DNA of 41,602 bases from Chitinophagaceae bacterium (lineage in GTDB: Bacteria > Bacteroidota > Bacteroidia > Chitinophagales > Chitinophagaceae). Shown here one piece after another: positions 39,415 to 41,602 of the stretch. Every line of letters starts with the position of its first letter. Positions within the stretch are counted from its first letter, which is position 1. The stretch is taken from positions 1 through 41,602 of the forward strand of contig CANJQU010000029.1 in assembly GCA_947476485.1 (NCBI GenBank), written 5' to 3'. Under the pieces are notes generated by a model that saw only the letters and a list, made by a program, of their open reading frames with translations, was not told the origin of the DNA and did no database searches. The position numbers were made by a program, and so were the translations under genes.

Positions 39415-39488
39415 CAAATAGAATTACGACCATCCTTCTAATATTTGTATTGGGAGCATTTGGTCAACCTGCATTAATCCTTTATAAA

Positions 39489-40340
39489 ATGACTGATTTC
39501 AGGCCCCGTGGCTTCCAGCAGATACCTTTAGTTGTAAGAAACCTGCTTATAATAAATGTCCTTGTTTTCCTTACGCAGCTCCTGTTTGAGTCAAGGGGTC
39601 TTAGCTTCGGAGTAAGCCCATCCGGAAACCCGGTTACTTTTGACGATGTTTTTGCGCTGCACTCCTGGCAATCCAATAAATTCCGCTGGTGGCAGATGTT
39701 TACGCATATGTTCATGCACGGAGGGTTTGGCCACATTTTCTTTAACATGTTTGCCCTGTGGATGTTTGGCAGGGTATTAGAAGGGGTGTGGGGACCTCAA
39801 AGGTTTATTATATTTTATCTCGTTTGTGGCCTTGGGGCGGCTCTATGTCACCTGGGCGTATTGTCACTTGAGAACGTTCGCTTGTATAATATGGTGATGG
39901 CTTATCAGGACCATCCAAGCCTGCCTTCGTTTGTTGATTTTCTCGCCAGGCACCATTTAAGAATTAACAATACTTCATTTTTGCCTGCGTGGCAGAGTGA
40001 TCCCAATTCGGTGATGCTGATCAATAAGTCTAAAGATCTTGTCTATTCGGCATATATGGAAATTGTGGGCAACCCTACTGTTGGCGCCTCTGGTGCGGTA
40101 TTCGGTTTGCTGTTCGCATTTGGTTATTTGTTTCCCAATACCGAGTTTATGGTATACCTGATCCCTGTGCCGGTAAAGGCTAAATGGTTAGTAGCTGTTT
40201 ACGCACTAGTTGAGCTTAGCCAGGGGTTGGCTCATTCTGCCGGTGATAATATTGCACATTTTGCGCACCTGGGTGGTATGCTATTTGCGTTCATATTGTT
40301 AAGAATATGGAAGAGCAGAGTAAGGAACGACTTTTATTGA
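39489..40340 (+). CDS. Rhomboid-family intramembrane serine protease
   Basis: 283 residues from ATG 39489; the frame extends upstream only through a TTG at 39450. Six or so membrane helices. The family landmarks are present: HGGFGHIFFNMFALW (H-x3-N in TM2), catalytic Ser ~201 in VGASGAVFGLLFAFG, and catalytic His ~260 in HFAHLGGMLFAF. It cleaves other membrane proteins within the bilayer. A loop of ~60 residues between helices (LYNMVMAYQDHPSLPSF...) is longer than in GlpG. Its stop overlaps the next gene by 34 bases. Confidence 0.95.
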   Translation: MTDFRPRGFQQIPLVVRNLLIINVLVFLTQLLFESRGLSFGVSPSGNPVTFDDVFALHSWQSNKFRWWQMFTHMFMHGGFGHIFFNMFALWMFGRVLEGVWGPQRFIIFYLVCGLGAALCHLGVLSLENVRLYNMVMAYQDHPSLPSFVDFLARHHLRINNTSFLPAWQSDPNSVMLINKSKDLVYSAYMEIVGNPTVGASGAVFGLLFAFGYLFPNTEFMVYLIPVPVKAKWLVAVYALVELSQGLAHSAGDNIAHFAHLGGMLFAFILLRIWKSRVRNDFY

Positions 40341-41266
40341 ATAATTTTACAGCAATGAGCACAGGGCGCAAAAGATCGGCACTATCCTATATACCAGGCC
40401 TTACAAATAACGCAGTACTGAAGCTGATCATTTTTTCAGCGACATTGTATATTATGCTGGCGCTTACCTGGGCCGTTATTATGCTCGTGTACCGAGGCTT
40501 GCCTACTTACGATCAATATTTTGTTCCCAACATCGCATTACCCGCATTGTCCGGAATCAAAAGCCATTGGTGGACTTTATTTACTTACGGATGGTTTTAT
40601 AACATGCCGGGCTTCTGGGAAATGGTGAGCAATATGCTTTGGCTATACTGCTTTGGCTCAGTGGTGCAGATGCTGATCGGGGCAAAGCAAGTAATACCGA
40701 TGTACCTGTATTGCATGTTCATCGGTGGTCTGTTCTACCTGCTTTCACAGGTGCTACCCGGCGAGCTGGGAAAAACGCCTCCTGTTATCGGGCTCTTCGG
40801 CCCGCGAGCCGGACTGATCGGGCTGGCCGCTGCGGCCTTTGCCCTGACACCGAGCTATCGCTTTTATCTTACAGAGACCTTTAGTATACCTATCGCAGTA
40901 GTGGCCGGCGTATTCGCAGTGCTTATGATCATTGGTTCCGGTTTTTACCTGCCGGTGATTTTTATGCTGCTGGGCGGCGGGCTCACCGGGTTTGGTTATG
41001 TAAGGCTGCTGCGCAGCGGGTACAGGCCAGGCGAATGGATGTATACCCTTACCGGTAAAATTGAAGGAATGGTGACACCCGCTGAAGATGCAGCGTGGCA
41101 AAAACATAACAGGAAACGCAGCGAAATACTCGACAAAATATACGAACCTAAAAACGGCATCTCGCAGAAACGCATAGACGACATCCTTGATAAAATAAAC
41201 CAAAAGGGCTACAACTCGCTATCAGCGGAGGAAAAAGATACGCTCATGCGGGCCGGGAAGGAGTAA
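40307..41266 (+). CDS. Rhomboid-like protein lacking catalytic residues
   Basis: 319 residues, or 303 if translation starts at ATG 40355 (MSTGRKRSALSY), which lies just after the stop of the first rhomboid gene. Six membrane segments follow the rhomboid plan, but the Ser motif G-x-S-G is replaced by LFGPRAGLIGLAAAAF and the His motif by MLLGGGLTGFGYV, without His. The C-terminal ~45 residues (SQKRIDDILDKINQKGYNSLSAEEKDTLM) match the small helical tail often found on Bacteroidota rhomboids. It is likely a pseudoprotease, perhaps binding clients or the active neighbour. Confidence 0.85.
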   Translation: MEEQSKERLLLNNFTAMSTGRKRSALSYIPGLTNNAVLKLIIFSATLYIMLALTWAVIMLVYRGLPTYDQYFVPNIALPALSGIKSHWWTLFTYGWFYNMPGFWEMVSNMLWLYCFGSVVQMLIGAKQVIPMYLYCMFIGGLFYLLSQVLPGELGKTPPVIGLFGPRAGLIGLAAAAFALTPSYRFYLTETFSIPIAVVAGVFAVLMIIGSGFYLPVIFMLLGGGLTGFGYVRLLRSGYRPGEWMYTLTGKIEGMVTPAEDAAWQKHNRKRSEILDKIYEPKNGISQKRIDDILDKINQKGYNSLSAEEKDTLMRAGKE

Positions 41267-41293
41267 TGTTTACACCTCTATACGGTTAGTATT

Positions 41294-41322
41294 TTGCCGG
41301 TTTCAAATATTCCCTATATTTG
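41294..41322 (+). promoter_or_regulatory. Promoter of the leader peptide-cysS unit
   Basis: TTG at 41294-41296 (in TTTTG), 18-base spacer, and TATATTTG at 41315-41322; both match the Bacteroidota consensus. Transcription would start close to 41329, about 10 bases before the leader ORF. Confidence 0.6.
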
Positions 41323-41338
41323 CTTTTAAGAACAAATC

Positions 41339-41425
41339 ATGCAACAATACACATCTATACATAATTTCCTTTATTCCCGGACTGAAAGCCATGTTCAGTA
41401 TTCGGGCTGTTGTTGCTGTTGTTGA
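41339..41425 (+). CDS. Cys-rich leader peptide, putative cysS attenuator
   Basis: 28 codons starting MQQYTSIHNFLYSRTESHVQ and ending Y-S-G followed by five Cys codons (TGT TGT TGC TGT TGT) directly before TGA. It lies just downstream of a strong promoter and 102 bases before the cysS ATG. Runs of codons for the cognate amino acid in a short upstream ORF are the hallmark of ribosome-mediated attenuation. A 10-bp hairpin (41376-41406) just before the Cys run competes with a weaker pairing that encloses it (41395-41405 with 41431-41440). The peptide itself is probably not functional. Confidence 0.75.
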   Translation: MQQYTSIHNFLYSRTESHVQYSGCCCCC

Positions 41426-41440
41426 TAGTGCCGATCCTGA
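41376..41440 (+). promoter_or_regulatory. Candidate alternative hairpins around the Cys codons
   Basis: Hairpin A: CCCG-ACTGAA / TTCAGT-CGGG (41376-41406, one internal loop). Hairpin B: TCAG and TCGG (41395-98, 41402-05) with CCGA and CTGA (41431-34, 41437-40), which would loop out the Cys codons. The two share bases and cannot form together. A U-rich tract follows at about 41453-41471, but there is no classical terminator stem next to it. Confidence 0.4.
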
Positions 41441-41527
41441 TAGTTATTCCCATTTCTTTTTAATTATTTTTACATCCGTTTTTGAACACACTTTGAAATG
41501 TGGCTGAAGAACACAATTTAGATACCT

Positions 41528-41602
41528 ATGTCAGAACTTCATTTTTATAACTCATATACAAGACAAAAAGAAAAGTTTGAACCGATAACGCCCGGTTATG
41601 CC
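41528..41602 (+). CDS. cysS: Cysteinyl-tRNA synthetase, N-terminal 25 codons
   Basis: The frame MSELHFYNSYTRQKEKFEPI then TPGYA runs off the window end. It matches the start of CysS, where L-x-x-Y/F-N-T/S-x-T-R-x-K-E precedes the zinc-site Cys and the GMYVCGPTVY block that lie beyond the window. The enzyme charges tRNA-Cys. The short fragment limits certainty, but the Cys-rich leader ORF upstream supports the call independently. Confidence 0.85.
   Translation, partial: MSELHFYNSYTRQKEKFEPITPGYA

Follow-up and report, generated by a model that had tools for sequence, protein, structure and literature searches.

The window (the whole 41,602-nucleotide stretch of DNA analysed here, from genome G000) carries an overlapping pair of rhomboid-family genes (39450-40340 and 40307-41266), both ahead of the leader that concerns us. 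The second of them has GPRAG at the place of the GASG of the first, so that it may lack the catalytic Ser. The window closes with the 5' end of cysS (41528-41602, forward strand); the rest of the gene lies on contig C158 of the same genome, where Pfam identifies it as a cysteinyl-tRNA synthetase. Reading the region 5' of cysS directly, we found a 28-codon open reading frame at 41339-41425 on the forward strand, MQQYTSIHNFLYSRTESHVQYSGCCCCC, with similar leaders in G097 and at L182. It finishes in five consecutive Cys codons, TGT TGT TGC TGT TGT (41408-41422, forward strand), the proposed sensor of charged tRNA-Cys, and the stop TGA (41423-41425) comes directly after the fifth. Between this stop and cysS there is a 102-nt untranslated spacer (41426-41527, forward strand) without a terminator-like site. 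This layout agrees with the first-pass annotation, which had described a 28-codon frame with five Cys codons, a gap of 102 bases and then cysS, and had also placed a consensus promoter ahead of the frame. Such a promoter is present by motif and is of the Bacteroidota type (TTTG-N18-TATATTTG): P1 (41293-41322, forward strand) has the -33 element TTTG at 41293-41296, an 18-nt spacer and the -7 box TATATTTG at 41315-41322, and a search near the leader for a sigma-70 site found none. The consensus TAnnTTTG spans -12 to -5 in Flavobacterium psychrophilum, according to excerpts of PMC9723704, so that transcription from P1 would be expected to start at about 41327, with the ATG ca. 12 nt into the RNA.

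The first-pass annotation had raised the question of whether a Cys-run frame recurs upstream of cysS in relatives, and it does, in 41 of 144 genomes of the family of the window (Chitinophagaceae, which includes Segetibacter); the absence from relatives that the annotation had named as a refutation was thus looked for and did not turn up. The search for cysS covered 147 genomes and gave matches in 145; the two genomes without one, G012 and G043, and G054, whose match was weak, were excluded before counting, and the 144 consist of 143 upstream regions that were read plus G112 (L179), found in a separate search. The starting set was 40 of the 143 upstream regions with at least three Cys among the last eight codons, from which L061 and L088 were dropped (Cys scattered) and to which G112, G023 (L042, where the Cys run is not at the very end) and G103 (L003, with 283 nt between the stop and cysS) were added. 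Examples of the family peptides are MKNFFSYCCCCC, MIHSSIYCCCCCC, MARYSIYTCCCCCC and MNAFYLYSCCFCCC; longer ones are MTLSTNIRSFIESVIQRNGCCACCCCL in G097, which belongs to the genus of the window, and MQSSKHISTGLNKLTFTESVIQHNGCCCYQICC at L182, an uncultured Bacteroidetes MAG that is the closest named relative (83% CysS identity). In Segetibacter aerophilus (L188), placed in the Chitinophagaceae by NCBI, the leader ends in MKFLRINNLPCCCCCC. Among 79 named loci examined (80 less L243, which came without upstream sequence) the leader was present in five, L182, L186, L188, L190 and L237, all of them Chitinophagales or with 65-83% CysS identity. The distant leader of G103, ca. 283 nt from cysS, has a promoter box, the peptide MYLLIHICNSYSCCCC and a GCAG arm past the stop, and may reflect either an insertion or another target gene.

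The distribution is patchy. In the 47 genera with two sampled genomes, the leader was found in both genomes of 11, in one genome of five and in neither of 31, from which we conclude that it was probably lost or gained more than once within the family; since it was not found in 103 of the 144 family genomes, it must also be dispensable. Beyond the family, 58 loci, 28 in the same order and 30 in the rest of the class, showed no leader, and the idea of a general trait of Bacteroidota cysS was rejected on this basis. The order was sampled by the best 29 of 58 matching genomes, one of which (L285) belongs to the window's own family, and the rest of the class by the best 30 of 60. Because the leader was not seen at these 58 loci of other Bacteroidota families, an origin separate from that of the mycobacterial Cys elements appears likelier.

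The first-pass annotation had considered a terminal run of five Cys very unlikely by chance, and this was borne out. Among ATG-initiated frames in the 143 family cysS upstream regions, runs of at least four identical residues (counted within the last 12 codons) numbered 23 for Cys, one for Leu and zero for each of the other 18 residues, and the reverse strand gave none of any residue; a chance origin was rejected by this residue control. When runs of three are admitted as well, some background appears: Cys 36, Leu 9, Ser 3 and a few for other residues, the maximum on the reverse strand being 7, for Ser. The run is also anchored at the stop: Cys occupies the last six codons in 31, 34, 35, 27, 28 and 22 of the 41 leaders, and the seventh in only 8, with TGC and TGT both in use. 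We therefore consider that the frame behaves as coding, its translation being read from frame and stop. A wider search for five TGY codons followed by a stop gave matches in 66 of the 147 genomes, against eight matches of the reversed pattern. When 36 such loci were viewed (30 from this search and six from the window's own genome), no ATG stood in frame with the run in 27, and overlap with a Leu-rich frame was seen in several, so that the search says little beyond cysS. One frame of the window's own genome, MLLRIYSCCCC (L150), was set aside as antisense to another open frame. In G114 (L170) a short frame, MTSAFTAVYYRCCCCC, lies 70 nt upstream of a 434-codon frame, which we take to resemble glutamate dehydrogenase; it is possible that this is a further Cys leader, or else a product of chance.

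Promoters and structure were studied in 43 leaders, i.e., 38 of the family plus L179, L182, L186, L190 and L237; L003 and L042 are not in this set. In 33 of the 43 a TAnnTTYG box lies no more than 25 nt from the start codon of the leader (shuffles: mean 1.2, maximum 5). In 26 the box stands 4-7 nt ahead of the ATG, and with the +1 placed as in F. psychrophilum the 5' untranslated region would measure 0-3 nt (ca. 12 nt in the window), so that many leaders would begin no more than 3 nt from the 5' end of the RNA. Of the F. psychrophilum mRNAs examined, 5.5% were leaderless, and translation starts in Bacteroidota do not rely on Shine-Dalgarno sequences (both from excerpts of PMC9723704). Past the leader stop and ahead of cysS, 20 of the 43 have a second TAnnTTYG box, a candidate for an internal promoter P2 (shuffles: mean 2.8, maximum 8), which begins 9-13 nt past the stop in 12 of these 20. 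The candidate in the window is weak, TATTTTTA at 41465-41472 (forward strand), with one mismatch to TAnnTTYG; its counterparts by alignment are TATTTTTA at L034 and TATTTTTG at L182. It is possible that this second -7-like box is a cysS promoter bypassing the leader, in which case some of the cysS transcripts would be made without the leader.

For the RNA structure, the outcome was different from what the first-pass annotation had imagined, namely two mutually exclusive hairpins whose balance would be shifted by stalling. In the window this is unsupported because there is neither a terminator nor unusual folding: the leader folds no better than its shuffles (z 0.55, with 144 of 200 shuffled versions equally or more stable), the same holds for the spacer (z 0.70; 154 of 200), and a search for terminator-like sites found none, so an intrinsic terminator was rejected there. 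Rfam models, T-box and other leader families included, gave no match to 41000-41602 at E-values up to 1, and an identity with one of these families was likewise discarded. What does recur in the relatives is one hairpin, H1, in which the bases just past the stop pair back to the final Cys codons, the stop itself being in or near the loop. Its arms include the pairs GCTGC/GCAGC, GTTGC/GCAAC, GCCGC/GCGGC, TGCCC/GGGCA and GTTGCTGA/TCAGCAAC. In many relatives H1 is stronger than in the window, where its weak counterpart (TGCTGT/ATAGTG, 41414-41430, forward strand) has six pairs, three of them G-U, and a shuffle p of 0.24.

Summed over the 43 leaders the energy of H1 is -283.5 kcal/mol, against -220.6 +/- 12.2 with the downstream arm shuffled (0 of 200 as low); taken singly, just seven of the 43 reach p 0.05 by the same shuffles. 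Permuting the downstream arms among 41 leaders (without the near-duplicates L143 and L190, which were removed from this set for the H1 and spacer tests) never gave a sum as low as that observed in 5000 trials, and did so once in 5000 in a set of 31 leaders, thinned by hand so that roughly one was left for each genus. The mean fractional rank of the natural pairing, for which 0.5 is expected, was 0.38 when taken by leader (0.40 in the thinned set) and 0.31 when taken by arm (0.32 in the thinned set), and in 11 leaders the own arm was among the ten best of 41, which is about chance. The fit between the arms appears thus to be real on average and modest, because many arms are interchangeable. Spacer structure did not go beyond shuffles in the 41 leaders (an equally low sum in 19 of 100 shuffles), and a second conserved hairpin before cysS was rejected for this reason. 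Terminator-like sites were found in 10 of the 43 cysS leaders (shuffles: mean 1.4, maximum 4), and in seven of the ten the stem holds Cys codons; among these seven, L085 and L143 are near-identical and the site of L064 is inside the frame.

Our main reading, to which we would give a probability of roughly three in four, is that the leader of the cysS mRNA senses charged tRNA-Cys, a shortage of Cys-tRNA opening H1 and raising cysS expression. Transcription would start at P1, just before the short frame ending in the Cys run and the stop. With enough Cys-tRNA the ribosome would reach the stop and leave the leader, and once it had gone the last Cys codons would pair with the bases just past the stop, forming H1. 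With little Cys-tRNA it would stall on the Cys run and cover the 5' arm of H1, which would stay open, and as long as H1 was kept open the expression of cysS would go up. The action of H1 on cysS would be terminator-like in a minority of the leaders and elsewhere possibly by Rho-dependent termination, RNA decay or translation. Comparison of the relatives supports a coding frame before cysS, close to a promoter, with Cys codons next to its stop and a recurrent H1; translation, stalling, the direction of the response and the action of H1 on cysS are steps that we infer. The attenuator reading of the first-pass annotation thus stands in part: a coding-like Cys-codon leader does precede cysS, and the switch between two exclusive hairpins found no support at the locus in the window. 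We are slightly more confident that the Cys run would be the sensor of charged tRNA-Cys than of the whole reading. Occlusion of H1 by the stalled ribosome as the working step is plausible rather than probable for the family, and it deserves less credit in the window itself because H1 is weak there.

The same sensor could have a different output, Rho or RNases acting on the G-poor untranslated spacer and a stalled ribosome protecting it, with H1 only an aid to pausing or release. This would agree with the window and 33 of the 43 leaders having no terminator-like site, and with the C/G ratio of the spacers, 2.07 as compared with 1.30 upstream of the 103 leader-less cysS genes, but the spacers are short (38-114 nt in the 43 leaders) and C makes up just 21% of them. 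A Rho-dependent model has been suggested for the terminator-less Cys leaders of mycobacteria and called weak by its own authors (PMC1262725, in excerpt). Such an output leaves the fit of the H1 arms unexplained, and we regard it as possible though doubtful. Less credible still is a translational output, in which ribosomes would reinitiate at cysS after the leader stop or a stall would alter access to the cysS start. Mycobacterial Cys leaders are cited as translation attenuation in excerpts of PMC13236596. Leader genes near their main genes are common and have been proposed to aid reinitiation, but the gap in Bacteroidetes peaks at 11-14 bp (PMC4833913, in excerpt), against the 38-114 nt of the cysS leaders. 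Moreover, the spacers are no more structured than their shuffles, and a leader serving only for coupling would have no need of Cys codons.

It is very unlikely that the small peptide itself acts, say in metal or redox binding through its cysteines. Four to seven Cys in a row do have a special chemistry, but outside the run the peptides are dissimilar save among close relatives and their length goes from 11 to 33 aa (the 4-aa leader of L076 comes from a rule that picked a TTG start), and the RNA arms around the leader stop fit each other. The notion that the TGY run is a DNA element, e.g., the -33 region of P2, or a simple repeat is strongly disfavoured and was rejected by the frame test. For 12 of the 20 P2-like boxes the -33 region would coincide with Cys codons, but the other eight boxes lie elsewhere, and the runs of at least four TGY codons in the 143 family upstream regions, counted without calling frames, are 23 sense and 0 antisense, all 23 with an in-frame upstream ATG and 20 of them with an immediate stop. 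For the output we favour occlusion of H1 first, Rho-dependent termination or RNA decay next and a translational effect after these.

The family also offers leaders before another cysteine gene. No match passed the TIGR01172 curated cut-off (0 of 24 leader-bearing genomes and 0 of 88 genomes drawn), so that the name cysE rests here on E-values of about 5e-45 or better, which were reached in 18 of the 24; the match was weak in the window's own genome, G000, and in G097, G138, G052, G146 and G066. In these six there was also no cysKM match above the cut-off; their weaker cysKM match we read as CBS-like, and their cysteine may come from transsulfuration or from uptake. A Cys leader precedes the cysE-like gene at eight of 36 family loci examined (L325, L328, L329, L333, L335, L379, L381, where the cysE start is uncertain, and L384), with peptides such as MRICQNCCCCFQLY, MRGKFCCCCGVR and MKNCCCYSFY. 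Eighteen of the 36 came from genomes chosen for their cysS leader (five with a cysE leader) and the other 18 out of 42 matches in the draw of 88 genomes (three with a cysE leader), and as half were so chosen, 8 in 36 is not a family rate. All eight have an intrinsic terminator (shuffles: mean 0.74, maximum 2). The best antiterminator strand starts no more than 4 nt from the leader stop in seven of the eight (shuffles: mean 1.5, 0 of 500 reaching seven), and the summed antiterminator pairing score is 124.5, against 97.9 +/- 6.7 in shuffles. A ribosome that had finished at the cysE leader stop would cover the antiterminator strand. With terminator and antiterminator resembling those of classical attenuators, these look like textbook two-hairpin Cys attenuators, and since they belong to the same family and concern the same amino acid, they support the cysS leader as a sensor of Cys-tRNA and provide a classical control for it.

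A cysS leader is also present in seven of the eight genomes with a cysE leader, half of the loci having been chosen for it; among the 18 unselected loci, the cysE leader was found in two of two genomes with a cysS leader and in one of 16 without. Of 30 cysK/CBS loci scanned, four gave matches that are leaders of a neighbouring cysE, and the remaining matches were longer frames with scattered Cys (L350, L363) or a short frame far upstream (L367). Five of the cysE loci (L325, L328, L333, L379 and L384) have in common a TTAGTCTACTAA-like palindrome, ca. 25-45 nt upstream of the leader ATG and overlapping the -7 box of the cysE promoter, possibly the operator of a sulfur regulator.

In the classical trp and his attenuators a leader frame carries a run of cognate codons, which lie inside the first arm of a hairpin. 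The cysS leaders are similar in their run of cognate codons and in their upstream promoter, recognised by motif, and differ in lacking a conspicuous second hairpin and, in 33 of 43, any terminator-like site. A comparative survey of attenuators was reportedly made by Lopatovskaya (2010). What the Chitinophagaceae could have, and this we put forward tentatively, is a one-hairpin codon-occlusion attenuator, in which the codons at which the ribosome stalls would double as the 5' arm of a single regulatory hairpin, making an antiterminator unnecessary, carried by promoter-proximal and often leaderless mini-frames, often beside an internal promoter, and forming with the two-hairpin cysE attenuators a small Cys regulon.

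A close likeness is to the uORFC-8-2 motif of Rhodobacterales, a Cys-codon frame also ahead of cysS, for which stalling at low Cys-tRNA has been proposed (PMC8632094, here and below as excerpted). Its Cys codons are in the first stem; a comparable placement may hold here, being supported on average among the relatives and weak in the window. However, it belongs to Alphaproteobacteria and has a tandem of two Cys codons, as a rule at positions 14-15, whereas the leaders described here have runs of up to seven Cys by the stop and a promoter-proximal ATG; its consensus includes a terminator U run in all cases, and the Bacteroidota cysS leaders are mostly without a terminator. In mycobacteria, leaderless polycysteine short frames were tested by Canestrari (2020), as cited in excerpts of PMC9031893, PMC9094748 and PMC13236596. 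They are similar in having a short frame, which here too would often lie at or near the 5' end of the mRNA, a Cys run and cysteine genes downstream, but they are from Actinobacteria and precede cysteine biosynthetic genes, while here, in Bacteroidota, we find cysS and a recurring hairpin with the Cys codons. Cys leader peptides have also been described in Mycobacterium, Propionibacterium acnes and Bifidobacterium (PMC1262725), with runs of Cys codons near the stop and, in Mycobacterium, no conserved terminator hairpin; those in the excerpted text concern the cys operons and cbs of Actinobacteria and not cysS. Within Bacteroidota, leader-peptide attenuation has been reported upstream of amino-acid biosynthesis operons in F. 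psychrophilum (PMC9723704, in excerpt), and in the open-access literature searched we found no description of a Cys leader for cysS or cysE. The cysS Cys leader of Chitinophagaceae is then apparently a case separate from those of Actinobacteria and Rhodobacterales. Its versions vary in run length, hairpin, promoter spacing and even in presence between sister species, and this natural variation makes the family a ready test set for how a stall is converted into expression. To the Cys-codon leaders known so far, as far as these sources go, from Actinobacteria and, for cysS, from Rhodobacterales, those of Bacteroidota can now be added.
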